This document shows, piece by piece, positions 1 through 16,452 of a DNA stretch of 64,000 bases. The notes under the pieces were generated by a model, which ran no database searches, had not been told where the DNA came from, and saw only the letters and a list, made by a program, of their open reading frames with translations. The stretch's first letter is position 1, and each line of letters begins with the position of its first letter. The translations under genes were made by a program, and so were the position numbers. Source of the stretch: Methylocella silvestris (GTDB lineage: Bacteria; Pseudomonadota; Alphaproteobacteria; Rhizobiales; Beijerinckiaceae); NCBI RefSeq assembly GCF_002891535.1, contig NZ_PDZR01000001.1, positions 1 through 64,000 of the forward strand. The letters are read 5' to 3'.

Positions 1-331
1 CCGCAACTTCGAGAAGCTGCTTCGCGCTGAAGGCGATGCCCCGCTTCCAACGCGCGCCCGGCTCCCAAACCGTGCGGATCGCCATGCCGAGCAGGATCGC
101 GATGACCAGCGCCTCGACATAGGGGTGAGAAAAGACGCGCTCCTCGACGCTTTGAACGCCTATCGACAGCAAAGTGACGGCGACGCACAGCGCCACGCCC
201 GGCGCAAGACCGCCAAAACCACCGAACAGCGTCTTTTTGCCGGTCAATATCTTCGCCGGATCGATATGCCGCAACGCAGATGTTCCTCTTTCCCACTCCG
301 TCCAACCAAAACTATCCGCCGGACGAAGCAT
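1..331 (-). CDS. YeiH-family (UPF0324) putative sulfite/sulfate exporter, 5' part only
   Basis: The gene starts at an ATG on the complement of 329-331 and runs off the left edge, leaving the first 110 residues. The protein begins MLRPADSFGWTEWERGTS, has a hydrophobic segment (GVALCVAVTLLSIGVQ), then ALVIAILLGMAIRTVW and GIAFSAKQLLEVA. That pattern of Pro-Gly-x-Ala-Leu helix, AILLGM helix and FAKQ-LL motif matches the N-terminus of YeiH-type ten-helix membrane proteins, annotated as putative sulfate exporters. Family function is weakly established. Its place beside xsc suggests export of sulfite or sulfate released from sulfonates; this is inference. No alternative family fits as well, but the truncated gene limits certainty. 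Confidence 0.75.
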   Translation of the reverse strand, partial: MLRPADSFGWTEWERGTSALRHIDPAKILTGKKTLFGGFGGLAPGVALCVAVTLLSIGVQSVEERVFSHPYVEALVIAILLGMAIRTVWEPGARWKRGIAFSAKQLLEVA

Positions 332-1070
332 TCGACTAATCTATTTTTCGAATAAGGTTATAAGATCAAGGAATGCTTTCCTGACGGAGAGAGGCCGCCG
401 TGGCCGCAGGCCTCGCCACGCAGGACCGTTGCAGGCGGACTTGCCGCTGTGTCGCGGCGAAGGCTCGGAGCGTCATGCACCGCGCGCCAAACCTTCCGCG
501 GTTTTGCCCCGCCTTCACCGAATTTTCTGCATAGGCGCAGCTTAAAGCAATCGGCGGCAATGCGTCGGCGTCAAGCAGGGTGATAGGATATATTTCAAAA
601 TCGAGATTCTCCCGTAAAATCCGCCCGTTTAGGAGAGACGACCCAGCCCCGGATCTATTCCGGCCGTGAACCACTCACGGATCGCCGCGGCGAGAGGTCG
701 GAGCGCCAAACATAAGTCGCGGCTATCAACATAAGCAAAGAATCAATTAGCGTGGAATGGCGCAGGCGCGCAGAACTCTGCCATCCAAATGTAAAATGAT
801 CTCTTCACCGGCTGCAATATCCGAGGTTCCGCTCAAGTTGGTCTCGATTCTTATCTCGACGCTCGACGGAGCCAAAGCAATCCATCGACAAGACAAATCT
901 TCTGTTCTGACGCGCAAAACCAGTCCTCGGAAAAGGCGACCTATGCCGCGTCGACAAAGTCGACCGATCGAAAAATCAGCTCTAAATGGCTCACGAAGCA
1001 CGAAGACTTCCGTCGCTGCAGGCTTGCCTGCGGACGCATAGGGAGCGGACGATCATCGAAGGGGGAAACT
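332..1070. other. Long intergenic region between the exporter and the first MFS gene
   Basis: About 740 bases without a convincing gene. A minus-strand open frame of 84 codons (747-1001) has no good ribosome binding site and no clear family, although part of it faintly resembles a PilZ-like strand pattern. The region must contain the divergent promoters for the exporter and the MFS gene. An inverted repeat ATTCGA/TCGAAT (330-335 and 348-353) overlaps the exporter start codon. Confidence 0.5.
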
Positions 1071-2474
1071 ATGGGCGTCGTATCAGATCCTAACGCCTTT
1101 GGAGCCGCTGCAGTCCCAGGCCCCTCGAATATCGTGGGCCGGCTGGAACGGCTGCCGATGACGGCATATCAACGCAAGATCTTTGCGATTATCGCCTCGG
1201 CCTGGCTCGTCGATCAAGTCGATGTCGCCCTGCTCACCTTTCTTTTGGGCTCAATCGTCGTCGCTTTCAATCTGACGCCGACCCAGGCGGGGCAACTCGC
1301 CGCGATGACCTTCGCAGGCCAGCTCGTTGGAAATGTGCTCGCCGGGACGGCGTCCGATCGGTTCGGACGGCGCATGGTTTTTCAGGTCACGATGGTGGTG
1401 TGGGGGCTGGCCAGCCTCGCCGCGGCGGCGGCCTGGAGCCTTGCGGCTCTTATGGTCTTCCGTTTTCTCATTGGCGTTGGCGTCGGCGGCGAAGCGCCGG
1501 TGGCTCAGGCGATGGTCTCGGAAATCGTGCCCGCCAATGTGCGCGGCAAATATATAGCTTTCATGGAAGGCTTTTGGGCCATCGGCTACGTTCTATCTGG
1601 AGCGATCAGCTTCTTTATCCTGCCTTATCTTGGGTGGCGCTGGGCCTTTGCATTCGTCGGCATGCTGTCTCTTGTCGTGTTCCTGGTCCGCCGTTCGATG
1701 CCTGAATCGCCGCGCTGGCTCGTGGAGCATGGACGCTATGAAGAAGCCGAAGCCGTGATGTCCCACATGGAGGCGGAGGTCATGAAACACACCGGGAAGC
1801 CGCTTCCCGTGACGCCCCCTCTCGCCGCCGATCAAGCGCCGGCGCGCGCCGAGGCCTCTCGCGTCCAAGGCTCCATTGCGACGCTGTTTTCTCCCGAATA
1901 TCGTCTGCGTACGCTGATGGCTTTTGGGATGTGGTTCTTCGCCCTCATTGGATTTTTTGGCCTCAACTCTTGGATAGCCGTGCTGCTCAAAGAGCGAGGC
2001 TTTTCGATCATCGGATCGGTCGGTTTCGTGACGCTGATCACGATCGGCGGCATCCCGGGCTTCTTCACCGCGGCGATTCTTCTGGAGAAAATAGGCCGCA
2101 AACCGACGACGGCCGGCTTCCTTTTATTCGCGGCCGCGGCGGCTTACCTTTATGGCAATGCGGCGGACCTGACGACGCTCTTTCTCACCGGCTTTGTGAT
2201 GCAATTTTTCATGTTCGGCATGTGGAGCTGCCTCTACGCCTATACGCCGGAACTTTACCCGACGCGCGCGCGCTCGACGGGAGCAGGCTTCGCTTCGGCG
2301 TTCGGACGGATCGGCGCCATTCTGGGTCCAATGATCGTCCCCGTTCTCGTCAAGAATTACGGCCCGGCAGCCGCTTTCGAGGTCGGCGCCGGCGGCTTCG
2401 TCATAGCCGCGCTGATGGTGCTCGTTCTGGGCGTCGAGACAAAGGGAAAAATCCTCGAGGCGGTCTCACACTAA
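1071..2474 (+). CDS. MFS transporter, sugar-porter/AAHS-like, candidate sulfonate uptake carrier
   Basis: A 467-residue inner-membrane carrier with about twelve hydrophobic segments. It shows the MFS loop 2-3 signature (GTASDRFGRRMVF, near residue 97), the sugar-porter-like PESPRWLVEHGR motif after helix 6 and the LYPTRARSTGAGFASAFGR stretch in the second half. The ATG follows GAAGGGGG at a suitable distance. This subfamily (SV2/aromatic-acid or sugar porter-like) moves small organic acids or sugars with protons. It lies next to the isethionate/sulfoacetaldehyde genes and converges on the aldehyde dehydrogenase, so uptake of a sulfonate such as isethionate is plausible. The substrate cannot be read from sequence. 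Confidence 0.85.
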   Translation: MGVVSDPNAFGAAAVPGPSNIVGRLERLPMTAYQRKIFAIIASAWLVDQVDVALLTFLLGSIVVAFNLTPTQAGQLAAMTFAGQLVGNVLAGTASDRFGRRMVFQVTMVVWGLASLAAAAAWSLAALMVFRFLIGVGVGGEAPVAQAMVSEIVPANVRGKYIAFMEGFWAIGYVLSGAISFFILPYLGWRWAFAFVGMLSLVVFLVRRSMPESPRWLVEHGRYEEAEAVMSHMEAEVMKHTGKPLPVTPPLAADQAPARAEASRVQGSIATLFSPEYRLRTLMAFGMWFFALIGFFGLNSWIAVLLKERGFSIIGSVGFVTLITIGGIPGFFTAAILLEKIGRKPTTAGFLLFAAAAAYLYGNAADLTTLFLTGFVMQFFMFGMWSCLYAYTPELYPTRARSTGAGFASAFGRIGAILGPMIVPVLVKNYGPAAAFEVGAGGFVIAALMVLVLGVETKGKILEAVSH

Positions 2475-2663: not shown

Positions 2664-4097
2664 TCAAATGCCCGCCTGCGACACGAATTTCGGCGTAAGA
2701 TACGCATCCAAGCCTTCGACCCCGCCTTCCGAGCCATATCCGCTATCCTTGACGCCTCCAAAAGGCGCCTCGGGCAAAGCAAGGCCAAGATGATTGATGG
2801 TTATCATGCCGGTCTCGACGCATGCGGCGACAGCGTTGGCGGTCTTTGCCGACCGTGTGTAGGCATAAGCAGCAAGGCCGTATTCCAATCGGTTGGCCTC
2901 TGCGATCGCTTCATCGAAATCGCCGAACGGGAGGACCATCGCCAACGGACCAAAGGGCTCCTCCATCATCATCCGCATCGTGCGATCCACGCTGGTGATT
3001 ACGGTCGGCTGAAAGAAATTACCCTTGTTGCCGATCCGGACTCCGCCCGTCCGAATTTTTGCGCCCTTTTGGACCGCATCGGCGACCAGCGATTCCATCG
3101 CTGTCACACGGCGTTCGTTGGCTAACGGTCCCATGTTGACCCCATCGTCAAGGCCATTGCCGACGCGGATTTCCTTCACGGCATGCACAAATCGTTCGAC
3201 GAAACGCTCATAGACATTTTTCTGCACGAGGAAGCGGGTCGGCGCGACGCAGACCTGCCCGGCGTTCCTGAATTTTGCGCCGGAGATCTGCTTGGCCGCA
3301 ACCTCAACGTCGGCGTCGTCGAACACGATCACCGGCGCATGGCCGCCGAGCTCCATTGTCACGCGCTTCATATGGGCCCCCGCCAACGCGGCGAGCTTCT
3401 TGCCCACGAGCGTCGATCCGGTAAATGTCACCTTGCGGATGATGGGATGGGGAATGAGATATTCGCTTATTTGGGACGGGACGCCAAAGACCAGGCCGAC
3501 TACGCCGCAGGGAAGGCCAGCGTCAACGAAAGCGCGGATCAACTCTGCGGGCGATGCCGGAGTCTCTTCCGGCGCTTTTACGATAATCGAACATCCCGCC
3601 GCCAACGCGGCGGATAGTTTGCGGACAATCTGGTTTATCGGGAAATTCCAGGGGGTGAAGGCGGCGACTGGGCCGACCGGCTCCTTGATGACGAGTTGAT
3701 AGACGCCTGCTGAACGAGCCGGAATCACACGGCCATAGGCCCGCCGGCCCTCTTCCGCAAACCAGTCGACGATATCAGCAGCGGCTAGCGTTTCAATCCG
3801 CGACTCCGCGAGCGGCTTTCCTTCTTCGAGCGTCATGAGCCTGGCGATGTCTTCTACCCGGCTCCGAAGGATATCGGCCGCCTTGCGCATGATTTTGGCG
3901 CGATCAAATGCCGATGTCGCGCGCCATATGGCGAAACCGCGCGCGCTGGCGGCGAGCGCCTCGTCGAGATCGTTTTGAGAAGCGCAGGCGACGGCGCCGA
4001 TCTTCTCTGCTGTCGCGGGGTTCGTCACCGGCAGGCAGCGCTGATTCTCGGCAGGTCGCCATTTGCCTGCAATGTGCAGGAGAACATCGGAGTACAT
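2664..4097 (-). CDS. NAD(P)-dependent aldehyde dehydrogenase, candidate sulfoacetaldehyde dehydrogenase (SafD-like)
   Basis: The 477-residue protein is a classical ALDH. Catalytic residues are visible: Asn151 in FTPWNFP, Glu249 in TMELGG and Cys283 in [12 protein letters not shown], with the EEPFGPLA and [11 protein letters not shown] motifs at the C-terminus. It resembles succinate-semialdehyde dehydrogenases (GabD/SSADH). The ATG at 4097 is preferred over an upstream in-frame start because GAGG precedes it. It is the last gene of the minus-strand run GMC-iclR-xsc-pta-aldh. Known sulfoacetaldehyde dehydrogenases (SafD) belong to this family and oxidise sulfoacetaldehyde to sulfoacetate, so that role is inferred from context. 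Succinate semialdehyde or another short aldehyde is the alternative substrate. Confidence 0.85.
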
Positions 4098-4352
4098 GTG
4101 ATCCTCGGGCCTCTCAAGCCGGCTGCCTGGCGGCGGACATCGCTCGTTTAACATTTTCGGTACGAAAACCGACGCTCGACGCGGTGAAAGCTCTCGTCAA
4201 TTCCCTGTTATCACCCGACGCATGCCGATGGCCGATTGAGCGCGCCGTTCCAGCGTCACGGTTCGCCTGCGCGCCCGCTTTGCAGAATTTTCAAATTTCG
4301 TCCTCGCGACCCCTTTGCTTCGGAAGATATTACGCAGTTGGAGCGACCGAGA

Positions 4353-5288
4353 CTAATGGAACATCGTTCCCTTTTCACGCTCTCGATGGGCGTGAATGAC
4401 CGCGAGCGCACAGGAGGCCACTCGGGTCAGCGCCGAGTCGGCGCGGCTCGTCAGGATGATCGGAGCCCGTGTGCCGATCACGATGCCGGCGCATTGCGCG
4501 CTGGTCAGGTAAATGAGTTGTTTATAGAGCATGTTCCCTGCTTCCAGATTCGGCATAAGCAGAATGTCCGCGTTGCCGGATACGGGCGAGGAAACGCCCT
4601 TGGTCTCGGCCGCGTCGCTGGAGATTGCAACGTCGAAGGCGAGCGGTCCGTCGACCACAGCGCCGGTGATCTGGCCACGGTCGGACATTTTGCTTAACGC
4701 CGCGGCGTCGAGCGTGCTTTGAATGGCCATGTTGACGGTCTCGACGGCAGACAGAACGCCGACATGTGGGCGGTGAACGCCGAGATTAAATGCAAGATCG
4801 ATTGTATTTTGAATGATGTCGCGTTTGTCAGATAGCGTCGGATTGATGTTGACGACGCAATCGGCAATCAGGAGCGGCTTCGGATAGCTCGGCATGTCGA
4901 ATAGAAATGTATGGCTGATGCGACGGCTTGTGCGCAGTCCGCCTGATTTATTCACGACGGCGGAAAGCAGCTCATCTGTGTGTAGACTGCCCTTCATGAT
5001 CAGAGTGACGGCTTTCTCATGACAAAGCAAGACGGCGGCGCTCGCCGCCTCAAGCGGATCATCCCCGCTTTCCATCAATTTCACGTTCGTTAGATCAATG
5101 CGATTTGCGTCGGCTATGGCCCTTATCCGATGGAGCGGTCCGATAAGAACTGGTTCGATCAATCCGCGGGCTTTTGCCGTAATCGCTGATTCAAGGGCTA
5201 TCACGCTGCAAGGGAAGGCGACTGCGACCTGCGCGGGTCCGATATCCTCCGCCGTCTTGATGAGTTGATCGAGATGAGGATATTTCAT
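4353..5288 (-). CDS. pta: Phosphate acetyltransferase (PTA/PTB family)
   Basis: A 311-residue single-domain enzyme of the phosphate acetyl/butyryltransferase family. Recognisable stretches include LIMKGSLHTDELLSAV, the LLIADCVVNINP segment, the HRPHVGVLSAVETVN block and GNADILLMPNLEAGNML, which form the CoA/phosphate-binding core. It converts acetyl phosphate plus CoA to acetyl-CoA. It directly follows xsc, whose product is acetyl phosphate, the arrangement known from sulfonate degraders. The length matches the short form without the N-terminal DRTGG regulatory domain. A strong hairpin terminator lies between xsc and this gene, so its expression may depend on read-through or a separate promoter. 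Confidence 0.92.
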   Translation of the reverse strand: MKYPHLDQLIKTAEDIGPAQVAVAFPCSVIALESAITAKARGLIEPVLIGPLHRIRAIADANRIDLTNVKLMESGDDPLEAASAAVLLCHEKAVTLIMKGSLHTDELLSAVVNKSGGLRTSRRISHTFLFDMPSYPKPLLIADCVVNINPTLSDKRDIIQNTIDLAFNLGVHRPHVGVLSAVETVNMAIQSTLDAAALSKMSDRGQITGAVVDGPLAFDVAISSDAAETKGVSSPVSGNADILLMPNLEAGNMLYKQLIYLTSAQCAGIVIGTRAPIILTSRADSALTRVASCALAVIHAHREREKGTMFH

Positions 5289-5355
5289 CGATTGTCCTTC
5301 GATCGCGCATAACGCGCGGCGCCTTGAAGACGAACGCGCCAGCCCGCGGCGCAGG

Positions 5356-5430: not shown

Positions 5431-7206
5431 CTAAGCAACGGCTTGCGGGCGCATATCCGCACGATCGACGCCAGCCACGACGACCGGCTTCTTCATCGCA
5501 TCGCGCCTGAACGGCTCGCCAAGTTCCTGGTTCAGAATGACTTCGATGAAGGTGGTGACGCCTTTTTCCTGCGCGGCGCATGCATCGGTCAGCGCCGTTG
5601 TCAGCTCCGATTGCGTGCGCACGGCGACGCCCTTCAGCCCGCAGGCCTCCGCGACGCGCGCGTAACTCAAATGCGGATCGAGTTCGGTTCCAACAAAATT
5701 GTCGTCATACCATAGCGTTGTGTTGCGCTTTTCTGCGCCCCACTGATAGTTTCGGAAGATGACCATGGTGATCGCTGGCCATTCTTCGCGTCCGATCGAA
5801 CTCATTTCGCTCATCGAGATGCCGAAGGCGCCATCGCCGGCGAAACCCACCACAGGAACATCCGGGCAGCCGATCTTGGCGCCGATGATTGCGGGAAACC
5901 CGTAGCCGCACGGGCCAAAGAGTCCGGGCGCGAGATATTTCCGGCTCTTCTCGAAGGTCGGATAGGCATTGCCGATGGCGCAATTATTTCCAATGTCGCT
6001 GGAAATGATTGCATCCTTCGGCAGAGCCGCCTGGATCGCCCGCCAGGCCTGCCGCGGCGACATGCGATCAGGCTCCCGGCTACGCGCCCGCTCGTTCCAG
6101 CTTGTGCCCTGATCGTCGTCTTCATGATCCATGCTGGACAGCTCTTGCAGCCACGCGGATTTCGTCTTGTGGATGAGCGCTTTGCGCTCCTCATTTCCGA
6201 TGCTTCCTGCGTCGGGAGAAAGCTGCTCCAGAATTTGGCGCGCAACCAGCTTGGCGTCGCCGCAGATGCCGACAGTGACGGGTTTTGCGAGGCCGATACG
6301 ATCCGGGTTTATGTCGACCTGGATGATTTTTGCGTTCTTTGGCCAGTAATCCACGCCATAGCCGGGCAGCGTCGAGAACGGGTTTAACCGCGTGCCGAGC
6401 GCTAGCACGACGTCGGCCCTGGAAATCAGCTCCATGGCCGCCTTCGATCCGTTATATCCAAGCGGGCCGCAAGCCAGGCGGTGGCTTCCGGGAAAACTGT
6501 CATTGTGTTGATATCCACAGCACACCGGAGCGTCGAGCCTTTCCGCCAAGGCGACGCAATCGGCGACCGCGTTGCCGATCACCACGCCGGCCCCGGACAA
6601 AATGACTGGAAAGGCCGCACTTGAAAGCAGCTTGGCGGCTTCGGCGATGGCCTGGGCGCCTCCGGAAGCGCGCTCCAGCTCGACAATTGAAGGCATATTG
6701 ACGTCAATGTGTTGCGTCCAATAGTCACGCGGAATGTTGATCTGAGCGGGCGCCGAAAGCCGCTTGGCTTTAAGGATGACGCGGTTCAACACTTCAACAA
6801 CGCGCGACGCGTCGCGGACCTCTTCCTGGTAGCAAACCATGTCGCGGAACAGCGCCATTTGTTCGACTTCCTGAAAGCCGCCCTGACCGATCGTCTTGTT
6901 CGCGGCCTGAGGCGTCACCAACAGCATCGGCGTATGGTTCCAGTAGGCGGTCTTGATCGCAGTCACAAAGCCGGTGACGCCCGGGCCATTCTGCGCGATG
7001 GCCATGCCGATCTTGCCGGTCGCGCGGGTATAGCCGTCGCAGATGAGGCCGCCGTTGGTCTCATGTGCGACGTCCCAGAAGGTAATGCCAGCCTGAGGAA
7101 ACAGATTCGAAATCGGCATGAAAGCCGAACCTATGATGCCGAATGCGTGCTCGATTCCGTGCAGTTGCAACACTTTGATGAATGCTTCTTCCGTCGTCAT
7201 TTTCAT
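5431..7206 (-). CDS. xsc: Sulfoacetaldehyde acetyltransferase (thiamine-diphosphate enzyme)
   Basis: The 591-residue enzyme has the three-domain layout of ThDP enzymes: the Pyr domain with catalytic Glu49 (AHETNGG), a central domain, and the PP domain with GDG at about 457-459 followed by the metal-binding Asn (IFRN). Diagnostic Xsc stretches are IGQGGFQEVEQMALFRDMV and RNYQWGAEKRNTTLWYDDN. It desulfonates sulfoacetaldehyde with phosphate, giving acetyl phosphate and sulfite in the cytoplasm. The ATG at 7206 is chosen because AGGGAG lies 9 bases upstream; a longer frame starts at 7251. It sits between iclR and pta, the central step of the island. Confidence 0.97.
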   Translation of the reverse strand: MKMTTEEAFIKVLQLHGIEHAFGIIGSAFMPISNLFPQAGITFWDVAHETNGGLICDGYTRATGKIGMAIAQNGPGVTGFVTAIKTAYWNHTPMLLVTPQAANKTIGQGGFQEVEQMALFRDMVCYQEEVRDASRVVEVLNRVILKAKRLSAPAQINIPRDYWTQHIDVNMPSIVELERASGGAQAIAEAAKLLSSAAFPVILSGAGVVIGNAVADCVALAERLDAPVCCGYQHNDSFPGSHRLACGPLGYNGSKAAMELISRADVVLALGTRLNPFSTLPGYGVDYWPKNAKIIQVDINPDRIGLAKPVTVGICGDAKLVARQILEQLSPDAGSIGNEERKALIHKTKSAWLQELSSMDHEDDDQGTSWNERARSREPDRMSPRQAWRAIQAALPKDAIISSDIGNNCAIGNAYPTFEKSRKYLAPGLFGPCGYGFPAIIGAKIGCPDVPVVGFAGDGAFGISMSEMSSIGREEWPAITMVIFRNYQWGAEKRNTTLWYDDNFVGTELDPHLSYARVAEACGLKGVAVRTQSELTTALTDACAAQEKGVTTFIEVILNQELGEPFRRDAMKKPVVVAGVDRADMRPQAVA

Positions 7207-7223
7207 GTTTTTTCGCTCCCTAG

Positions 7224-7239
7224 TTTTTTGAATGAGCCA
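7224..7239 (-). promoter_or_regulatory. 16-base element upstream of xsc, shared with lysR
   Basis: On the minus strand TGGCTCATTCAAAAAA ends 17 bases before the xsc ATG. The identical 16-mer lies just upstream of the lysR start at 11340-11355, in the same orientation to its gene. It may be a shared regulatory or leader element; function unknown. Confidence 0.4.
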
Positions 7240-7293
7240 ACCATTGCGCAATCGCCGCTTTTAAGCTGGCGCAGCGGCTGATCGGCGATTTTG

Positions 7294-8055
7294 TCAGGCC
7301 ATGGTTGCGGCGAGCGCCGCGGCGGCGGCTTGTAAGGCAGGCAAACGCTCCATCGCATTCTCTCGCGACAGGCGCACGATCGGCGCCTGGAGCGCGAGGC
7401 CCGCGAGGCATTCGCGCTTGCCGGCGCCGAAAATCGGCACGGCGATGCAGAACAGGCCGGGAAGGAACTCCTCGTCGTCGAAGGCAAAACCCTGGCGGCG
7501 GACGGCGGCGAACTCGACGTCGAGCGCCGCGCGGGTCGTCAAAGTGTTCGGCGTGAAGCGGCGCAACGATAACGTGTCGAGGAGCCGCTCCCGCCTTGCC
7601 GGCGGCATCATCGCGAGGAACATCTTGCCGCTCGCCGAGCAGTGGACCGGAACGTGCGAACCTTTCTGGAAGGCGACGCGAAGCGGCAGCATCGCCTCGA
7701 CGCGATCGAGATACATAACTTCGCTACCCTGCAGAACAGTCAGATTGCAGGATTCGCCGAGGTCGCGCGCGACGCGCTCGAGGATCTGGTGGCGTTGCAT
7801 CGAGCCGGGATTATTCGACAGGATAGACAACGCCAATGCGCTGGCCTGCGCCGCCAGCTCATAGCGCCGGCCGTCCGGCAGTCGTTGCAGGAGTTCTGCT
7901 CCTTCGAGCATTGTCAGCCACCTGTGAAGCGTGGGCTTCGGGAGATCGACGATCTCCGTCAGCTCGGCGAGCGTTGGCGCGTGATCCATCTCTGCGATCG
8001 TCTTGAGCAGACTGAAAGCCTTGAGGGCAGGCGAGGAGTCCGGTGCATCATCCAT
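7294..8055 (-). CDS. IclR-family transcriptional regulator
   Basis: The 253-residue protein has an N-terminal winged helix (PALKAFSLLKTIAEMDHAPTLAELTEIVDLPKPTLHRWLTML, quoted in pieces: PALKAFSLLKTI then PKPTLHRWL) and a C-terminal IclR effector-binding domain with VHCSASGKMFLA and the GFAFDDEEFLPGLFCIAVPIF core. The start is uncertain: ATG at 8055 or at 8070, five codons upstream; neither has a strong ribosome binding site. It lies inside the operon between the GMC enzyme and xsc, which suggests control of isethionate/sulfoacetaldehyde genes. IclR regulators are known in isethionate loci, but the effector here is inferred. Confidence 0.9.
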   Translation of the reverse strand: MDDAPDSSPALKAFSLLKTIAEMDHAPTLAELTEIVDLPKPTLHRWLTMLEGAELLQRLPDGRRYELAAQASALALSILSNNPGSMQRHQILERVARDLGESCNLTVLQGSEVMYLDRVEAMLPLRVAFQKGSHVPVHCSASGKMFLAMMPPARRERLLDTLSLRRFTPNTLTTRAALDVEFAAVRRQGFAFDDEEFLPGLFCIAVPIFGAGKRECLAGLALQAPIVRLSRENAMERLPALQAAAAALAATMA

Positions 8056-8228
8056 CAGCGTGATCCACATATATTCCGTTTTTTGTTTCAATAAAAGCAA
8101 AAAAACGAGATTTTTGTTTGATTCTCTCGGCCAGGGCGCGAGAGACGGCGACATAAGGCGCCGAAGGTCGAAGGCGCCCCAAGGACGATATCCTTACGCG
8201 CCTCGCCCGGAACCGGCTGAAGATTTTC

Positions 8229-9893
8229 TCAGATGCTCGCCGTGGCCGCCTTCCGTGGCGCAGGCGCAGCGCCGCGTTCATCCTGGAGAATCATGTCGGA
8301 GGCTTTTTCGGCGATCATGACGACAGGCGCGTTGGTGTTGCCAGAAATGAGCGTCGGCATGATCGAGCAATCGACAACGCGAAGCCCGGCGATCCCATGA
8401 ACGCGCAGGCGCGCGTCGGTTACGGCGCTTGGGTCGGATCCCATTTTGCAGGTTCCGGAGGGGTGAAAGATCGTCGCGCCGGCCCCCCGCGCGAATTCGA
8501 GCAGCGCTTCGTCGCCTTCGACGCCGCGGCCCGGGCGGTATTCCTCCGTGAGAAGCGGCGCGAGACTGCGCGTGGCGGCGAGGCGGCGGGCGAATTTAAT
8601 GCCTTCGACCGTGCAGCGGCGGTCGGTTTCGCTAGCGAGATAATTCGCGCGTATGACGGGCGGCTCGAACGGGTCGCGGCCGCGGATCATCACCGAGCCG
8701 CGCGACTCCGGGCGCAACTGGCACACCGAAAAGGTGCAGCCGGACCAGTCGTGCGGCTTCGCGCCGGCCATGTCCGCCGACAGCGTCGCGAAATGAAACT
8801 GAACGTCGGGCGTCGCAGAATCTGGAAGTACGCGGGTAAAAAGGCCGCCCTGATTGATGCCGACCGCAAGAGGCCCGCGTCGCCGCAACAGCCATTGCAG
8901 GCCGATGCGCGCCTTGCCTCCAAGCGAGGCGAGATCATCGTTGGTCGTGATCGGCTTGGCGACCTTGTACATCAGGCGGACTTGCAAATGATCCTGCAAA
9001 TTCGCGCCGACGCCCGGAAGATGATGTACGACATTGACGCCATGCGCCTTGAGGACGTCGCCTGGCCCGATGCCCGACAACTGCAGCAGTTGCGGGCTTT
9101 GCAGCGCGCCTGTGGCGAGTACAATCTCGCGACCGGCGTAGGCCTCGCGCATTTTTCCGTACTGACGGTAGCGCACGCCGACCGCGCGCGCGCCGTCGAG
9201 AATAAGCCCCGTAGCCTGCGCCTCGACCTCGACGCGGAGATTTTCGCGGGATTCTGCCGGGCGTAGATAGGCGACCGCGGCGCTGCAGCGCCAGCCATGG
9301 CGCGTGAACAGCTGATAATAGCCGACGCCCTCCGAGCCGCCCGCATTGAAATCGTAAATTCGCGGCACGCCAAGCTCCTGCGCGCCCTCGAAAATGGCCT
9401 CGAGAAGCTCGTGCTTATCCTCGATGTCGGAGCACCAGAGCGGCCCGTCGGCGCCGTGAACGGAACTCGCCCCCTTTGTGTTGTGCTCCGACCGGATAAA
9501 GTAGGGGAGCACGTCCTTCCACGACCAGCCGTCATTTCCAGCCTGCGCCCAGCGGTCGTAGTCAGCAGCCTGACCGCGGATGAAGATCAGGCCGTTGATG
9601 GAGCTCGAGCCACCGAGCGTGCGTCCGCGCGGCCAGTAAATGCGCCGGCCGTTCATCGCCGGCTCGGGCTCGGTGTAGAAGCCCCAGTTCAGGGTTTTGT
9701 GGAACATCGTCTTCCCGTAGCCGATGGGAAGATGGATCCAGATCGAGCGATCTCTGGGGCCGGCTTCGAGCAGCAGGATCTTGCGCTGGCCGCTCGTGGA
9801 AAGCCGATTGGCGAGGACGCATCCAGCCGTCCCGCCGCCGACGATGATATAGTCAAAGTCAGCGCGTTCCAGCCCTTTGCCGGTCCCGCCCAT
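8229..9893 (-). CDS. GMC-family FAD oxidoreductase, candidate isethionate dehydrogenase (IseJ-like)
   Basis: The 554-residue flavoprotein has the ADP-binding motif IIVGGGTAGCVLANRL near residue 16, the GMC signature 1 region (PRGRTLGGSSSINGLIFIRG), signature 2 (ATGALQSPQLLQLSGIG), and the catalytic His/Asn pair in HPSGTCKMG and SGNTNAPVVMIAEKAS. The ATG follows GGGGAGAGG. No signal peptide is seen, so it is cytoplasmic or peripheral to the membrane. The family includes choline dehydrogenase and the reported isethionate dehydrogenase IseJ, which makes sulfoacetaldehyde. As first gene of the xsc operon it would supply the Xsc substrate. A general alcohol or choline dehydrogenase is the alternative. 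Confidence 0.88.
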   Translation of the reverse strand: MGGTGKGLERADFDYIIVGGGTAGCVLANRLSTSGQRKILLLEAGPRDRSIWIHLPIGYGKTMFHKTLNWGFYTEPEPAMNGRRIYWPRGRTLGGSSSINGLIFIRGQAADYDRWAQAGNDGWSWKDVLPYFIRSEHNTKGASSVHGADGPLWCSDIEDKHELLEAIFEGAQELGVPRIYDFNAGGSEGVGYYQLFTRHGWRCSAAVAYLRPAESRENLRVEVEAQATGLILDGARAVGVRYRQYGKMREAYAGREIVLATGALQSPQLLQLSGIGPGDVLKAHGVNVVHHLPGVGANLQDHLQVRLMYKVAKPITTNDDLASLGGKARIGLQWLLRRRGPLAVGINQGGLFTRVLPDSATPDVQFHFATLSADMAGAKPHDWSGCTFSVCQLRPESRGSVMIRGRDPFEPPVIRANYLASETDRRCTVEGIKFARRLAATRSLAPLLTEEYRPGRGVEGDEALLEFARGAGATIFHPSGTCKMGSDPSAVTDARLRVHGIAGLRVVDCSIMPTLISGNTNAPVVMIAEKASDMILQDERGAAPAPRKAATASI

Positions 9894-10427: not shown

Positions 10428-11330
10428 CTATTGATCGTGCTGCAAAGCAACATCGTAGTCGGGCAAATTATTCAATTCCTTGCAAATATATTGAGCCAGA
10501 TGTTCGGCCGCCGACTCGACTCCGCTCGGCTTGCGCTTGAGCACGATCTCCATTCCCGGCAGCGCGGGCAGACCCTCCTTGCTGCCAAGCTGGCGTACAT
10601 CGGGGGTCAGCGCGCAAAGCGGAAAGATCGATACGGCGAATCCCGCGTAAACGGCGGCTTGCAATCCGGCTATGCTATCACAAACCGCAGCGATCCTCCA
10701 TGGACGGCCGGTTTGGCCAAGGGCGTCGAGGGCGCGCTGGCGGTAAATGCTGCCGGTCGGCAGAAGCGCGAGGGGCAGCGGCTCGTCAATGCCGGCGACG
10801 TAGTCGCGGGCCGCGACCCAGATCAGCGGCTCTTCCCGAATCGTCACCCCGCCGCCGAAATCCGGCTGGCGCGTCATGATGGCGATATCGATTTCCTCTC
10901 GCATGAGGGCGGCGTGCAGATGAACGCTGCGGGAGCAGCGCAATTCGATCTCGACCTGGGGATAAGCCCGTGCAAAGCCGCTGAGCACGAGAGGCAAAAG
11001 ATACGCCGCATAGAGGTCCGGCACGCCGAGGCGGACGTGACCAGCTATGTTGAACGCTTGGAAACGGTCGCGGATTTCGTCATTGAGCTGAAGCAGTGAG
11101 CGCGCGTAGGAGAGCAGCATTTCGCCATCGCGAGTCAGCGCGACATGCCCATTGCGTTGCCGACGATCCCTCTCGAAAAGGCGCTTGCCGACCGCCTTTT
11201 CGAGACGCTGCATCTGGTGGGTGATTGCCGGCTGGGTCCGTCCGACCTGACGGCCCGCCAGCGTCACGCTCCCCGTTTCATTCACGGCCACGAACGTTCG
11301 AAGCAGCGGTATCTCAAGATCCGGAATCAT
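10428..11330 (-). CDS. LysR-family transcriptional regulator
   Basis: The 300-residue protein has the LysR N-terminal helix-turn-helix (LRTFVAVNETGSVTLAGRQV, then RTQPAITHQMQRLE) and the periplasmic-binding-like effector domain beginning near GHVRLGVPDLYAAYLLP. The ATG at 11330 gives the usual LysR length; an upstream in-frame start would add 20 unrelated residues. It is divergent from the MFS-SauS-ligase operon, the usual layout for a LysR activator, so it probably senses sulfoacetate or a derived CoA ester. That effector is inferred. Confidence 0.92.
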   Translation of the reverse strand: MIPDLEIPLLRTFVAVNETGSVTLAGRQVGRTQPAITHQMQRLEKAVGKRLFERDRRQRNGHVALTRDGEMLLSYARSLLQLNDEIRDRFQAFNIAGHVRLGVPDLYAAYLLPLVLSGFARAYPQVEIELRCSRSVHLHAALMREEIDIAIMTRQPDFGGGVTIREEPLIWVAARDYVAGIDEPLPLALLPTGSIYRQRALDALGQTGRPWRIAAVCDSIAGLQAAVYAGFAVSIFPLCALTPDVRQLGSKEGLPALPGMEIVLKRKPSGVESAAEHLAQYICKELNNLPDYDVALQHDQ

Positions 11331-11339
11331 GTTTATCAA

Positions 11340-11355
11340 TTTTTTGAATGAGCCA
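11340..11355 (-). promoter_or_regulatory. 16-base element upstream of lysR, shared with xsc
   Basis: Second copy of TGGCTCATTCAAAAAA on the minus strand, ending 9 bases before the lysR ATG. See the copy at 7224-7239. Confidence 0.4.
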
Positions 11356-11558
11356 GATGCAAACAATAGATTTTTCGTGAGCGCTGGCAATCATTAGATT
11401 AATTCGACCTTGGACAAGCCGAACATCGCAGGCGGAAGACCTGTCGGCCCCAAAGGACGAGGAACGCTCAATAGACGTCGGGGACCTTCTTTCCTGCGCG
11501 CGGACTTTCGCGCGCCGGATTCGAGAAGCAGCCGGCGACTCTTCAAGTGAGGGGCAGA

Positions 11559-12872
11559 ATGTTTCGCTTCAGCCGCACCCGCATCAAAAGCACAGATATC
11601 GTCCTGATCGTCATTTGCCTGATGTATCTCGTCACTTACATCGATCGGGTAAACATCGCGACCGCCGCTCCCGCAATGCAAAAGGAGCTGGGTCTTACGA
11701 ATATACAGCTTGGTCTTGCGTTCTCCGCTTTCGCCTATCCATACGCGTTTTTTCAGATCGCCGGCGGGTGGCTTGGAGATCGCTTGGGGCCGCGCCTCAC
11801 GCTGTTGATCTGCGGCACAATATGGTCCGCGGCGACGCTCGCGATGGGCTTCGTGGAAGGAGCCATATCCCTTGTGGCGGCGCGCTTCATACTGGGAATT
11901 GGCGAAGGTTCGGCGTTCCCGACCGCCACACGCGCCTTGTCAAATTGGTTGCCCGCGGATCGGCGCGCCTTCGCCCAGGGCGTCACTCATGCGTCAGCAC
12001 GTTTTGGCAACGCGCTGACGCCGCCGCTGATCGCCTTTCTCATCGTGGCTCTGTCGTGGCGCGCATCCTTCTTCATCGTAGGCGCGATCAGCTTCGCATG
12101 GGTCGCGCTGTGGTGGTTCTATTTCCGTGACGATCCGCGCGACCACAAGGGCGTGACCGCGGAAGAACTCGCGGTCTTGCCTCCGCAGAAGCTTACTGCG
12201 GTGCGAAAGGTCGTCCCCTGGCGGCGCTTGTTCACGCGAATCCTGCCCGTCACTCTCACGGACTTCTGCTACGGTTGGACCCTCTGGTTGTTTCTCAACT
12301 GGATCCCTTCCTTTTTCCTTCACCAGTTTCATCTCGACATTAAAAAGTCGGCGATTTTCGCGGCGGGGGTTTTCCTGGCCGGCGTCCTCGGCGACACGGT
12401 CGGCGGCATTGTGAGCGACGGAATTTTGCGCCGAACCGGCAGCGTGTCGAAAGCGCGCGTGTCGGTCATTGTGGTGGGCTTTCTTGGCGCCTTCGTGTTC
12501 ATGTTGCCTGTCGTTTTCTCCAGTGATCTCATGATTGTGACGCTTTGCCTAAGCGGCGCTTTCTTCTTCGCCGAATTGATTGTCGCGCCGATCTGGGCTG
12601 TGCCCATGGACATTGCGCCGCAATACGCGGGCACGGCGAGCGGCTTCATGAATTTTGGCTTCGGTCTCGCCGGCATGATCTCGCCCGTCGTGTTCGGCGC
12701 CGTGATCGACGCGACGGGAAGCTGGACTCTGCCGTTTGTCGCCTCGCTTGGGTTGCTGCTGCTTGGCGCCGTGCTTGCGCTGTTCATGCGGCCGGACCAG
12801 CCCTTTCTCGACGAGATCGAACCTACGCGCGATCGTGGCGCCAGGCCCATGCCCGTGCAATCCCCTTCCTGA
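11559..12872 (+). CDS. MFS transporter, anion:cation symporter (ACS) family, SauU-like
   Basis: The protein of about 437 residues has the ACS-family hallmarks: the first-helix YLVTYIDRVNIATAAPAM stretch, GGWLGDRLGPR in loop 2-3 and ARFILGIGEGSAFPTATRAL. ATG at 11559 is used because AGGGG lies just upstream; a GTG at 11547 would overlap that site. The ACS family carries organic anions such as phthalate, glucarate and, in sulfoacetate loci, sulfoacetate (SauU). It heads the operon with the SauS-like dehydrogenase and the CoA ligase, so sulfoacetate uptake is the best guess. Confidence 0.88.
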   Translation: MFRFSRTRIKSTDIVLIVICLMYLVTYIDRVNIATAAPAMQKELGLTNIQLGLAFSAFAYPYAFFQIAGGWLGDRLGPRLTLLICGTIWSAATLAMGFVEGAISLVAARFILGIGEGSAFPTATRALSNWLPADRRAFAQGVTHASARFGNALTPPLIAFLIVALSWRASFFIVGAISFAWVALWWFYFRDDPRDHKGVTAEELAVLPPQKLTAVRKVVPWRRLFTRILPVTLTDFCYGWTLWLFLNWIPSFFLHQFHLDIKKSAIFAAGVFLAGVLGDTVGGIVSDGILRRTGSVSKARVSVIVVGFLGAFVFMLPVVFSSDLMIVTLCLSGAFFFAELIVAPIWAVPMDIAPQYAGTASGFMNFGFGLAGMISPVVFGAVIDATGSWTLPFVASLGLLLLGAVLALFMRPDQPFLDEIEPTRDRGARPMPVQSPS

Positions 12873-12938
12873 ATTATGTTGCTTTTCCCTCGCCAGGCGG
12901 CGTCGCGTTCGTCTCGCGCTATCAATCGGAGATTATGG

Positions 12939-14414
12939 ATGACCACTTCCGTCGCCGAGCCGATCGGAAAACTTGATCGCTTCCACTCGAGCAGGCCAGC
13001 AGACAGTTTGGACTCAGATCCAGTCTACACGACGGCGCAGCGCGCGCGCGCTGCTCAAAGGCTTTTCGCCGACGTCAGTCAGGAGCGCGCCGACGACGCC
13101 GTCCGGGCGCTGGCTTGGTCGCTGTACAAGCCGGAAAACGCCAAGGCGCTCGCCGAGCTTGCGGTCGAGGATACAGGCCTCGGCAACGTCCCCGATAAAA
13201 TCCGCAAGAAGCAAAGGAAGACTTTCGGCACGTTGAGGGATCTCCTGCGTGGACGTTCGGTCGGAATCATTGAGCGCGATGAGTCGCGCGGCATTGTCAA
13301 ATACGCCAAGCCAATGGGCGTTATCTGTGCGGTGACGCCATCGACCAACCCTGGCGCGACGCCGGTCAACAAGGCCATGATGGCGATCAAGGGCCGCAAT
13401 GCGATCGTCATTGCGCCGTCGCCGCTCGGCTATCGAACCACGGCGCTTGTCGTCGAGCTGATGCGGCAGGAATTGGCGAAAATTAACCTGCCGATGGACC
13501 TCGTGCAGATCCTGCCACTCCCGATCACGAAGGAGTCGACGGAGGCGCTGATGAAGGCCTGTGATTTGGTGGTCGTGACCGGATCCCAGGACAATGTACG
13601 GCGCGCCTATTCGAGCGGCACGCCCGCGATCGGCGTCGGCGCGGGCAACGTGCCGGTGTTGATCGACGAGACCGCCGACCTTCGCGATGCGGCGCAAAAA
13701 ATCTGCGAATCAAAAATCTTCGACAACTCGACCTCCTGTTCCTCCGAGAACTCAGTCATCATTATCGATAGCGTGTATGATGCGGCGATCGCGGCGCTCC
13801 GGGTAGCCGGAGGCTATTTGTGCGACGAACGCCAAAAGCAGAAAATCGCCGACAAATTCTGGGTCAATGGCAAGCTGAACCGCGACCTGATCGCGCGGGA
13901 CGCCAAGGTGCTCGCCGAAGCGTTCGAACTTCCAAGCATCGCGCAAGACGCCAAGTTCTTTATGGTCGAAGAGACCGGCGCCGGACGAGCTTACCCGTTC
14001 TCGGGAGAAAAGCTCAGTCTCATCCTGACGGTTTATCGCGCATCTGACTTTGCAGCCGCAAAGAAGCGCCTTCGCGAGATACTGGACTTCCAGGGGAAGG
14101 GGCATTCGCTCGGAATCCACACCACCGACATGAGTCGCGCGCGGGAGCTGGCGGAAGACCTCGACGTCGTGCGCGTGCTTGTCAATTTTGCGCATACGTT
14201 CGGCAATGGCGGCGGCTTCAACTCCGGACTCGGATTCACGCTCAGCATGGGCTGCGGTTCATGGCAAAAGAACAGCATCTCGGAAAATCTCAGCTACAGG
14301 CACTTCATCAACGTGACGCATCTAGTCACCGTGATCCCTGAGGACAAGCCCAGCGAGCGCGAGCTCTTTGGACCGCATTGGGACAAGATTGGATATAGGG
14401 AGGCCGCGCAATGA
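12939..14414 (+). CDS. sauS: CoA-acylating aldehyde dehydrogenase, probable sulfoacetaldehyde dehydrogenase (acylating)
   Basis: The 491-residue enzyme belongs to the EutE/AdhE-like acylating ALDHs. It has CAVTPSTNP (Pro-Thr/Ser-Asn-Pro nucleotide motif), GVGAGNVPVLID, and the catalytic Cys267 in FDNSTSCSSE. The ATG at 12939 follows CGGAGA; a longer frame from 12876 overlaps the MFS end and is unlikely. In the known sulfoacetate pathway SauS reduces sulfoacetyl-CoA to sulfoacetaldehyde with NADPH. Here the adjacent two-subunit CoA ligase would make the CoA ester and Xsc would use the aldehyde. The symbol rests on this context; succinyl-CoA or malonyl-CoA reduction is the alternative. Confidence 0.82.
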   Translation: MTTSVAEPIGKLDRFHSSRPADSLDSDPVYTTAQRARAAQRLFADVSQERADDAVRALAWSLYKPENAKALAELAVEDTGLGNVPDKIRKKQRKTFGTLRDLLRGRSVGIIERDESRGIVKYAKPMGVICAVTPSTNPGATPVNKAMMAIKGRNAIVIAPSPLGYRTTALVVELMRQELAKINLPMDLVQILPLPITKESTEALMKACDLVVVTGSQDNVRRAYSSGTPAIGVGAGNVPVLIDETADLRDAAQKICESKIFDNSTSCSSENSVIIIDSVYDAAIAALRVAGGYLCDERQKQKIADKFWVNGKLNRDLIARDAKVLAEAFELPSIAQDAKFFMVEETGAGRAYPFSGEKLSLILTVYRASDFAAAKKRLREILDFQGKGHSLGIHTTDMSRARELAEDLDVVRVLVNFAHTFGNGGGFNSGLGFTLSMGCGSWQKNSISENLSYRHFINVTHLVTVIPEDKPSERELFGPHWDKIGYREAAQ

Positions 14415-15538
14415 ATTTCGTTGAGCATGTCGCAAAGGAGCGCGCCTTGGCGCCCGCAGGCGTCCCCGTTCCTCGCGGGATTCTCTGCAAGACGCCGGAA
14501 GCCGCTGCGGAAGCATTCGAAAAGCTCGGGCCATGCATGGTCAAAGCCCAGGCGCCAACCGGCAAGCGGGGCAAGGCTGGAGGCATCAAACCGGCCTTTT
14601 CGGCTAAAGAGGCTCATGACCTTGCCGCAGCCATCCTCGGAATGACGATTGACGGACATCTCGTCGGCTCAGTGCTGCTCGAAGAACGCGCCGGGATCGC
14701 CCGGGAGTTTTACGCCGTTGTCCTGAACGATGCAAAAAGCAAAAGTCCTCTTGTGTTGTTTTCGACCGAGGGAGGAATGGACATCGAAGAAGCGGCGGCG
14801 ACGCGGCCCGACGCGCTAAAGCATTGGTCTGTCGATCTCGCCCAGGGTTTTGGCGTCGCAGAAGCGCGCGCGATGACCGAGGGTCTCGATCTTTCCGGCG
14901 CAGATGACCAAATCGCGCAGATTCTGGCGGCGCTTTATCAGATCAGCAGCGCCCTCGACGCCGAGCTGATTGAAATCAATCCCCTGGCCCTGTTGACCGA
15001 CGGACGCGTCGTGGCGCTCGATTGCAAGCTGACGCTCGATGATTCGGCCGCCTTCCGCCAGGGCGATCTATCGGCTGCGGCGGCGCCCGAAACAATGTCG
15101 GTCCTTGAGCAGGACGGCTACGATAGCGGATTGAAATTCATTCAGCTCGACGGCAATGTCGGCGTTTTGGCCAATGGCGCCGGCCTCACCATGACGACGA
15201 TGGACGTCATCAGCCACTTTGGCGGCCGTCCGGCGAACTTCCTCGAGATTGGCGGCGAAGCCTACACAAAGTCGGAGACGGCGTTGCGCCTCGTGCTCGC
15301 CAACCCCGGCGTGAAGAGTCTTGTTGTTAACTTCTGCGGCGCGTTCGCGCGCACGGATGTAATGGCGGAGGGCGTGGTTGCGGCCTGGCGAAAACTTAAG
15401 CCCTCGGTGCCGGTCTTCTTTTCGATTCATGGAACCGGGGAGGATGACGCCGTCCGTATCGTTCGCGAAGGTTTGGGCATCGAACCTTTCGATTTCATGG
15501 AAGACGCGGTGAAGGCCGCGGTGGGAGCGGCGCAATGA
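14411..15538 (+). CDS. ADP-forming acyl-CoA ligase, beta (ATP-grasp, SucC-like) subunit, candidate sulfoacetate-CoA ligase
   Basis: The 375-residue protein aligns by eye with the succinyl-CoA synthetase beta subunit: ATP-grasp N-domain with GPCMVKAQAPTGKRGKAGGI, the IEINPLALLTDGRVVALDCKL metal/ATP site, and the C-terminal ligase domain with LDGNVGVLANGAGLTMTTMD and FLEIGG. It overlaps sauS by ATGA and the alpha subunit by ATGATT, so the three are translationally coupled. It would phosphorylate the alpha-subunit His using ATP. Because it is separated from TCA genes and sits behind a SauS-like gene, a sulfoacetate substrate is inferred rather than succinate. Confidence 0.85.
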   Translation: MNFVEHVAKERALAPAGVPVPRGILCKTPEAAAEAFEKLGPCMVKAQAPTGKRGKAGGIKPAFSAKEAHDLAAAILGMTIDGHLVGSVLLEERAGIAREFYAVVLNDAKSKSPLVLFSTEGGMDIEEAAATRPDALKHWSVDLAQGFGVAEARAMTEGLDLSGADDQIAQILAALYQISSALDAELIEINPLALLTDGRVVALDCKLTLDDSAAFRQGDLSAAAAPETMSVLEQDGYDSGLKFIQLDGNVGVLANGAGLTMTTMDVISHFGGRPANFLEIGGEAYTKSETALRLVLANPGVKSLVVNFCGAFARTDVMAEGVVAAWRKLKPSVPVFFSIHGTGEDDAVRIVREGLGIEPFDFMEDAVKAAVGAAQ

Positions 15539-16452
15539 TTATTTATCGGCGGCACGGCCGGGTCCTGGTCCAAGGGATCACCGGCAAACAAGGCACATTC
15601 TGGACTGAGAAAATGATATCCTGCGGAACGCAGGTGGTCGCCGGCGTCAACCCGAAGCGCGCGGGTCAAACACACATCGGCGTTCCCGTATACGCCACCG
15701 CCAAAGAGGCAATGGCTGAAACGCCCTTCGATATCGCTGTGATGTTTATTCCGCCGTCGGCCGCCAGGGACGCGGCGCTCGACGCGATCGAAGCTGGCGC
15801 GAAGACGGTCGTCATACTTACCGAGCACATTCCGGCTCGCGACGTCATGGCGATTCATCATGCGGCGCGCGAGAATTCGGTGCAGATCATTGGCCCGAAT
15901 ACCGCGGGCGTCGTGACGCCCGGCGAAGGTTTCGTCGGCATCATGCCCGGGCATAACCAGAATATTTTTCAGCCCGGAACAGTCGGGGTCATTTCGCGCA
16001 GCGGCAGTCTCGGGACCTTGGTCTGCCTCAATCTGACGCGAGCCGGCATCGGACAGTCGGCGTTTCTTGGCATCGGCGGCGATCCGATGATCGGCACGAC
16101 GACACGCGATGCGCTCATCGCACTTGACAAAGATGCGGGAACGGACGCGGTCGTCTTGGTCGGCGAGATCGGGGGAGCCATGGAAGAAGCGGCGGCGGAA
16201 TATGCGGCGAGCATGGCGAAGCCTGTCGTTTCCTTTATTGCGGGGCGAGCCTCGCCGCCTGGCAAGAAAATGGGGCACGCGGGCGCTATCGTCCTTGGCG
16301 ACGCCGGGAGTTATCCCTCGAAGCGAAAAGCGCTTGAAGCAGCAGGCGTCATTGTCGCGGACACGCCGTCTGAAATTTCCGACTTGCTGCTCCAGCAAAT
16401 CGAGGCCCGCTTTCCTAGCGCCGATCTCGCAAATGCTGAAGGTTGGAATTGA
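15535..16452 (+). CDS. ADP-forming acyl-CoA ligase, alpha (SucD-like) subunit, candidate sulfoacetate-CoA ligase
   Basis: The 305-residue protein has the CoA-binding Rossmann start [15 protein letters not shown], the [15 protein letters not shown] stretch and the phospho-histidine motif [11 protein letters not shown] with His248. It is the partner of the preceding beta subunit and closes the plus-strand operon. In SucD the His is phosphorylated and passes phosphate to the acid before CoA attack. The canonical sulfoacetate ligase SauT of Cupriavidus is, to my knowledge, a single-chain acyl-CoA synthetase, so this is a replacement by an unrelated enzyme type. Malate- or succinate-CoA ligase remains possible. 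Confidence 0.85.

Follow-up and report, generated by a model that had tools for sequence, protein, structure and literature searches.

A probable C2-sulfonate island in Methylocella silvestris, with sulfoacetate and isethionate arms predicted to meet at Xsc

Introduction

What does the gene cluster at the left end of one Methylocella silvestris contig allow the cell to grow on? The window analysed here is a stretch of 64,000 nucleotides, positions 1-64000 of contig NZ_PDZR01000001.1 (C11), and forms the left end of this 746,894-base contig in a 4.28 Mb draft genome of 79 contigs (G000). Positions 1-16452 hold an island of genes around xsc, which encodes sulfoacetaldehyde acetyltransferase. The island is quite likely one for growth on C2 sulfonates: a sulfoacetate arm and an isethionate arm would meet at Xsc, the sulfite released would pass to YeiH and SorAB, and the whole was probably acquired. 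A reading made from the sequence alone had proposed two such arms meeting at Xsc, and this remains the best reading. The sulfoacetate arm is well supported; for the isethionate arm, which is probable, the evidence is the gene context and a tree of its dehydrogenase.

Such an island would be a compact, recurrent funnel of two environmental C2 sulfonates into one C-S cleavage step. Both sulfoacetate and isethionate are described as products of bacterial sulfoquinovose breakdown (PMC12890257).

Gene content and proposed pathway

The genes of positions 1-16452 are, from left to right:

1..331, minus strand: yeiH-type exporter, 5' part, cut by the contig end (PF03601 profile positions 1-64 at C11:2-202)
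1071..2474, plus strand: MFS1, an aromatic-acid/H+ symporter-like carrier (PF07690; TIGR00895 256.9 bits, under the cut-off of 418.55)
2664..4154, minus strand: aldehyde dehydrogenase (SSADH/alpha-ketoglutaric-semialdehyde group), the gene that ends the xsc-pta run on this strand (PF00171)
4353..5288, minus strand: Pta, phosphate acetyltransferase, short PTA_PTB type (PRK11890, PRK08190, PF01515)
5431..7251, minus strand: Xsc, sulfoacetaldehyde acetyltransferase; likely start ATG near 7206 (TIGR03457)
7294..8154, minus strand: IclR-family regulator (PF01614, PF09339)
8229..9893, minus strand: GMC-family flavin dehydrogenase, probable isethionate dehydrogenase (IseJ-like; PF00732, PF05199)
10428..11390, minus strand: LysR regulator, divergent from the sau operon, in a SauR-like position (best model NCBIfam LrhA, 191 bits, under the cut-off of 530)
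11547..12872, plus strand: MFS2, probable sulfoacetate importer in a SauU-like position (PF07690)
12876..14414, plus strand: SauS, CoA-acylating sulfoacetaldehyde dehydrogenase (NF047625)
14411..15538, plus strand: beta subunit of an ADP-forming acyl-CoA ligase (SauC/SucC-like), probable sulfoacetate-CoA ligase (PF08442, PF00549)
15535..16452, plus strand: alpha subunit of the same ligase (SauD/SucD-like; PF02629, PF00549)

Profile searches recovered every gene family that the sequence-only reading had named. Its YeiH-type exporter belongs to the PF03601 family as claimed, but the gene is not complete, since only the start of the profile is matched at the first bases of the contig. The aldehyde dehydrogenase at 2664-4154 was absent from the earlier gene list. 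The genes for the GMC dehydrogenase, IclR, Xsc, Pta and this aldehyde dehydrogenase run in the same direction and could form one transcript; depending on which starts are chosen, some 40 to 260 bp separate neighbours. MFS2, SauS and the two ligase subunits are separated by 3 bp or overlap by 4 bp (longest open reading frames) and, judged by this spacing, form a tight operon, which the divergent LysR gene adjoins.

In the proposed pathway, sulfoacetate would enter through MFS2, be converted by the two-subunit ligase with ATP and CoA to sulfoacetyl-CoA, and be reduced by SauS to sulfoacetaldehyde. From isethionate, whose carrier is uncertain (perhaps MFS1), the GMC dehydrogenase would produce sulfoacetaldehyde as well, by oxidation. 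Xsc would then convert sulfoacetaldehyde and phosphate to sulfite and acetyl phosphate, from which Pta would form acetyl-CoA. YeiH would export the sulfite and SorAB would oxidise it to sulfate; the sorAB genes lie on another contig, which possibly adjoins the left edge of the window. Export of sulfite by YeiH and its oxidation by SorAB are taken from general background. The substrates, the direction of flow, the regulation and the YeiH cargo we infer from families and neighbourhoods. The steps of Xsc, IseJ and SauS/SauCD are described in PMC6453916, PMC12890257 and PMC12625764.

The shared lower pathway and the sulfoacetate arm

Xsc passes TIGR03457 with 957.8 bits (cut-off 676.4) and is the sole over-cut-off Xsc of the genome. 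SauS passes NF047625 with 786.3 bits (cut-off 600), and the names of these two proteins can be regarded as secure. Pta is narrowly over PRK11890 (418.4 vs 413) and well over PRK08190 (440.1 vs 282), so that the xsc and pta identities called clear from sequence are confirmed by curated cut-offs.

The joined set recurs in other genomes. An order-wide set of 297 genomes was searched, with four or five top candidates scored per genome, so weaker second copies may be missed. Xsc is present in 74 of the 297 genomes and an over-cut-off SauS in 40. Xsc accompanies SauS in 34 of these 40, with six lacking it (Fisher 3.6e-18, uncorrected for kinship), and this excess over the overall frequency points to clustering beyond chance. 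In 12 of the 40, the genome of the window counted, SauS lies less than 20 kb from xsc. Xsc loci were also collected more widely, and the best 80 of 595 were kept, many of them short-ended and many from SAR11-type bacteria; SauS is near xsc in 6 of the 80.

The closest counterpart is an island of about 17 kb in G062, a genome of the same family (loci L150 and L124). Its order is ligase alpha (86% identity), ligase beta (75%), SauS (78%), MFS2 (81%), divergent LysR (73%) and GMC (77%), then a carrier (74% to that of L024), YeiH, SorA and SorB (53% and 49% to the proteins on contig C14 of the present genome), other genes, Xsc (80%), IclR (68%) and acetate kinase. No homologue of the extra aldehyde dehydrogenase or of MFS1 was found in this island stretch. 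Locus L023, from a metagenome-assembled genome (MAG) of Hyphomicrobiales, and L024, from Afipia sp. 64-13, both hold GMC, a carrier, Pta, IclR, Xsc, LysR, MFS2, SauS and both ligase subunits. L025, from Hansschlegelia beijingensis, has GMC, a carrier, IclR, Xsc, SauS and both ligase subunits, and L011, from an Acidocella MAG, has Xsc, Pta, SauS, both ligase subunits, a more distant GMC (51%) and a carrier. L168 (G258) is apparently the same locus as L025 and thus is not independent of it. A neighbourhood search for conserved co-occurrence had been suggested as a check on the original proposal, and these counts and joined sets bear it out. Family membership, gene order and synteny in relatives are matters of direct observation, as is the presence of sorAB in the genome.

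The ligase pair carries the succinyl-CoA ligase domains ATP-grasp_2, Ligase_CoA and CoA_binding and adjoins SauS both here and in relatives. The beta subunit falls under both SucC cut-offs (341 vs 370 and 310 vs 376); the alpha subunit scores 337 bits against TIGR01019, under the cut-off of 353, and meets the SucD model PRK05678 by 0.1 bit. Identity in relatives is 49-75% for beta, which adjoins SauS there too, and 63-86% for alpha. The fold itself says nothing on the substrate, since the related ligase HpfYZ rejects sulfoacetate (PMC11489063). MFS2 adjoins SauS in G062 (81%), in L023 and L024 (65%) and in G056 (46%), and is one gene apart from it in Paraburkholderia phymatum (48%). LysR has the same divergent placement in L023, L024 and G062 and belongs to the sau operon. 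With SauS over its cut-off, and with SauS and the ligase subunits syntenic with xsc in related loci, the case for the sulfoacetate arm is strong and the arm is very likely used.

The probable isethionate arm

Assignment of the GMC protein depends on its neighbours and on its place in a tree. In the literature, a flavin-dependent IseJ that feeds Xsc is described (PMC6453916), and the window GMC is likewise a flavoprotein dehydrogenase whose gene is linked to xsc. A match at 1e-190 or better occurs in 15 genomes of the order, eight with Xsc and seven without. At 70% identity or more, all three other genomes have the GMC gene less than 10 kb from xsc. At 55% or more (rounded), all six other genomes have Xsc, and five of them have the GMC gene within this distance.

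A tree was made from 49 gathered GMC sequences, of which 16 were dropped (mostly SAR11-type near-copies, plus L025) and 33 kept, by a quick IQ-TREE run with SH-aLRT support only. The window protein groups with its five nearest rows, all of them near xsc (SH-aLRT 99). In the enclosing set of 11 rows (SH-aLRT 100), 8 are near xsc, the window counted. A separate clade holds 8 of the 9 rows that had been chosen as not near xsc; the ninth lies within another xsc-linked group. The root of the tree is unsure because of two long branches. Gene context and this tree make the GMC protein a probable isethionate dehydrogenase of the IseJ type.

The NT-25 plasmid (L153) carries a GMC gene of the window's clade (59% identical), which was considered as a further xsc neighbour. 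This was ruled out, as the adjoining genes encode TPP enzymes and no Xsc is present there. The stretch, 4247-10850, has TRAP genes, a GntR gene and annotated decarboxylase and TPP-enzyme-like genes beside the GMC gene. The latter pair is perhaps, we presume, a two-part sulfopyruvate decarboxylase. The window's GMC clade may serve more than one sulfonate route, since this member adjoins a two-part TPP-type decarboxylase instead of Xsc.

Among the 80 kept xsc loci, a GMC protein is near xsc in 30, a distant TRAP permease homologue (26-33% identity where given) in 26, and both in 18; these are mostly SAR11-type loci (L037-L085). This suggests isethionate use in SAR11-type bacteria.

Regulators and genes of uncertain role

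The sequence-only reading had given each arm its own regulator. For LysR and the sau operon this agrees with the placement described above, but IclR is a poor fit as the regulator of the GMC arm. It is 68% identical to the xsc-side IclR of G062 and 56% to the xsc-side IclR of L023-L025. These last three loci carry two IclR genes each, and their GMC-side copy is only 39-41% identical to the window protein. Being closest to the xsc-side copies, the window IclR probably controls xsc-pta or the whole lower pathway.

MFS1 is the sole candidate isethionate carrier within 1-16452 and could replace the carrier that is missing on the GMC side; nothing ties it to isethionate, and homologues occur in 2 of the 80 xsc loci, at 30% identity. 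The extra aldehyde dehydrogenase meets none of 25 NCBIfam models (of 42) among the matches listed. It was considered as SafD, the oxidative sulfoacetaldehyde dehydrogenase, and rejected (NF047626, 268 bits against a cut-off of 700). Its closest solved chains are 9zh8, an aldehyde dehydrogenase, and 5x5t, an alpha-ketoglutaric semialdehyde dehydrogenase. No homologue was found in the 80 xsc loci. Close homologues (67-75%) in five family members have no other island genes within the 14-17 kb read. The protein may be a passenger, or may handle a by-product.

Sulfite handling and the contig break

The yeiH stub of the window is 70% identical to residues 20-93 of the G062 YeiH. Two contigs, C11 and C28, start inside the 5' part of yeiH; their first 127 bases are the same and the first mismatch follows directly, as would be expected of an assembler run at k = 127 that meets a two-copy repeat. 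The gene is only a stub in the window because the assembly broke there.

The genome encodes two enzymes of the sulfite-oxidase fold, on contigs C22 and C14. The C22 enzyme passes the SoxC model (534.4 vs 420). The C14 enzyme is SorA-like, with sulfite:cytochrome c oxidoreductase 2blf_A as its best solved match (E 2.9e-123), and is followed 22 bp downstream by sorB, encoding a 113-aa c-type cytochrome with a CLICH motif. A genome without sulfite dehydrogenase is ruled out by this pair. C14 breaks off upstream of sorA, inside a yeiH gene whose final 42 codons remain (88% identical to the G062 gene). C14 should continue into C11 or C28, since both start inside the 5' part of yeiH. For a join to C11 speaks G062, which carries yeiH-sorA-sorB inside the equivalent island. 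For a join to C28 speaks the Pseudomonas plasmid locus L214, where a C28-like cluster is neighboured by a YeiH gene and a sulfite-oxidase gene, the two 3.6 kb apart. A search for the C14 tail across the contigs of the genome found it on no second contig.

The statement that no sulfite dehydrogenase is visible thus holds for 1-16452 but is false of the genome. It had also been proposed to extend the left edge in search of sorAB-type genes. This edge proved to be the contig end, and sorA-sorB were found behind the 3' end of yeiH on C14, with C14 possibly joined through yeiH to C11. That sulfite detoxification seems to be missing may reflect no more than where the contig stops; a repeat in such a position can hide sulfite-handling genes. 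In the neighbourhood of sorAB (L147:3892-8745), C14 also has genes for an MFS carrier, a TauE/SafE-type exporter and a LysR regulator, which may be another module for sulfur compounds.

Probable acquisition

At a threshold of 1e-150, Xsc is missing from all 14 congeners sampled, and growth on sulfonates would thus be an acquired trait that can be tested. G009, the congener that aligns best, matches the region only at 22329-22534 and from 22977 rightward. The 14 genes sampled up to 22.3 kb have a third-position GC of 0.65-0.78, against 0.80-0.83 for the three sampled further right. From these two boundaries, the foreign block may reach about 22.3 kb, past the island itself. The island was probably acquired horizontally.

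The genes at 18512-22258, between the island and this boundary, have third-position GC as low as the island's and may have been acquired with it: they encode a response regulator with a fused nucleotide-cyclase domain, a regulator of the OmpR type and a hybrid PAS histidine kinase. Downstream of the ligase genes, 16500-17000 is a degenerate repeat, of which 16709-16889 recurs in at least 4 of the 14 congeners. The repeat, at about 16.5-17.0 kb, was considered as an IS3-like insertion-sequence remnant that might point to a mobile-element origin of the island, but a Pfam search with a fragment of it gave no match. In 747,993 bases (about 17%) of the 4.28 Mb genome, a share too small to tell about the lifestyle of the host, queries for methane monooxygenase and nitrogenase found no match, and a methanol-dehydrogenase fragment found one weak match (36% over 77 residues).

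Weighing the alternatives

Several observations weigh against a two-arm island with its own sulfite handling. The GMC protein barely clears PRK02106, a subfamily model named 'choline dehydrogenase' (605.4 vs 605), and stays under the cut-off of the betA equivalog (499 vs 732); among solved chains, it comes closest to a chloramphenicol-inactivating oxidoreductase and to a choline dehydrogenase. With so tiny a margin, a failed equivalog and mixed solved chains, the substrate is not settled by these comparisons. Three plasmid-borne members of its clade (L151, L152, L153) have no xsc in the 17-26 kb read. A dedicated isethionate carrier stands beside GMC in G062, L023, L024, L011, L151 and L170, and nearby in L025, but was not found beside the GMC gene in the window; the GMC-side IclR frequent in relatives is likewise missing there. 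The extra aldehyde dehydrogenase and MFS1 are left without an explained place in the pathway. As for sulfite, the best model of the C14 SorA, NF052245, gives 551.8 bits, under the equivalog cut-off of 600. The congener G014 has no xsc and carries yeiH-sorAB, which thus looks like a general module. Given this and the YeiH and sulfite-oxidase genes beside a different cluster in L214, sorAB need not belong to the island. The GMC observations fit an alternative in which sulfoacetate is the sole growth substrate, the GMC protein oxidises some other alcohol, and there is one sulfonate arm. Specificity of GMC proteins is unreadable from sequence, homologues at 52-54% occur in seven genomes without Xsc, and the NT-25 protein shows that the same clade can adjoin TRAP genes and a two-part decarboxylase. 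This is unlikely all the same, as the tree places the window protein among xsc-linked rows and sets most unlinked rows apart, and its closer homologues keep their place within 10 kb of xsc.

The direction of the sulfoacetate arm could also be reversed. SauS and the ADP-forming ligase would then run oxidatively, from sulfoacetaldehyde to sulfoacetate with a gain of ATP, like SqwD/SqwKL, and sulfoacetate would be a product. Both directions are known, oxidative for SqwD/SqwKL and reductive for SauS/SauCD (PMC12890257), and the second aldehyde dehydrogenase of the island might also act on sulfoacetaldehyde. However, Xsc and Pta in the same island yield acetyl-CoA directly, a carrier gene heads the sau operon, and on plasmids of Azospirillum and Indioceanicola this trio occurs together with genes for a TTT carrier and Xsc and with SoeABC-like genes, which together leave the oxidative direction very improbable. 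A somewhat less remote idea is that taurine is the main substrate, with Xsc and Pta serving taurine breakdown and both arms as side branches. Xsc is common to taurine pathways (PMC6453916), and C28 encodes an SsuA-type ABC binding protein, although this scores 86.5 against a cut-off of 163.5. No transaminase or taurine dehydrogenase family was seen among the open reading frames scanned, which are a part of those in the window, none to the right of about 47 kb, with the rest of the genome not searched; a taurine role is rather improbable. Uptake of sulfoacetate and isethionate into one sulfoacetaldehyde pool is the reading retained here.

A second sulfonate-type region

Contig C28, outside the window, starts in the near-identical yeiH stub (L089:1-13795). 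It continues with a GntR gene, an ABC transporter with the SsuA-like binding protein, FrdB-like and FrdA-like (succinate-dehydrogenase-like) genes and TauE. Further genes encode a two-subunit fumarase/tartrate-dehydratase-like hydratase, a small protein with a GD_AH protein, and SerA-like and Ldh/ComC-like (sulfolactate-dehydrogenase-like) dehydrogenases. The small protein and the GD_AH protein we take to be SuyA/SuyB-like. Related FrdA-hydratase-TauE sets occur on plasmids of Methylobacterium radiotolerans, Paracoccus versutus, Sulfitobacter and Pseudomonas. A route from 3-sulfopropionate via sulfoacrylate to sulfolactate is mentioned, from a thesis, in PMC11489063, and the C28 genes are candidates for it. 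It is conceivable, though doubtful, that the island is half of a two-locus sulfonate-mineralising system, in which the C28 set would run from 3-sulfopropionate through sulfoacrylate and sulfolactate to pyruvate and sulfite, and a single SorAB and one type of exporter would serve the two loci.

The C28-like cluster of L214, on plasmid pMPC6-328K of Pseudomonas sp. MPC6, has no SuyA/SuyB-like gene in the 19.6 kb read, and a gene for a CoA-acylating methylmalonate-semialdehyde dehydrogenase adjoins the hydratase. These two features would fit a different C-S cleavage, and it may be speculated that sulfoacrylate is hydrated there at the sulfonate carbon to give malonate semialdehyde and sulfite. 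No description of the C28 gene set was found in the literature consulted.

Comparison with known systems

The nearest described systems share single arms with the island. In sauRSTU of Cupriavidus necator H16, too, SauS and an MFS carrier, with a regulator close by, supply sulfoacetaldehyde. The window differs in having a two-subunit ligase of the ADP-forming type instead of SauT, and in being joined to xsc, pta and a GMC dehydrogenase. SauS, SauT and SauU are named in PMC12625764. In Bilophila wadsworthia, sauSCD combines SauS with an ADP-forming two-subunit sulfoacetate-CoA ligase, as in the window (PMC12890257, PMC12625764). There, however, isethionate and the radical enzyme IseG come next on the route, and the carrier is of the TTT type, whereas in the window the product would go to Xsc and the carrier is of the MFS type. 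For the other arm, the isethionate dehydrogenase gene of Ruegeria pomeroyi DSS-3 adjoins other ise genes in iseRMLKJ (PMC4334477). R. pomeroyi uses the TRAP carrier iseKLM; in the window no TRAP genes were seen, and the sau arm is joined.

Joined sets resembling the island lie on replicons of other bacteria. Plasmid p3 of Azospirillum argentinense (L155) and a plasmid of Indioceanicola profundi (L154) have IclR, Pta, SauS, the two-subunit ligase and Xsc in one locus. They differ in a TTT carrier and in molybdopterin, 4Fe-4S and DmsC-type genes read as SoeABC, and no GMC homologue lies in the stretches read. On pBPHY01 of Paraburkholderia phymatum (L151), GMC and a carrier adjoin SauS and MFS2; here the ligase is a SauT-like AMP-binding one, SoeA/SoeB-like genes are present, and no xsc was found in the 25.6 kb read. 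Sau clusters of mixed type are described in PMC12625764. In a literature search at the level of titles and abstract openings, which did not take in the primary sauRSTU, sauSCD and ise papers, no description of a joined ise-sau-xsc island was found. The island is a set of known arms in a mainly new, recurring arrangement.

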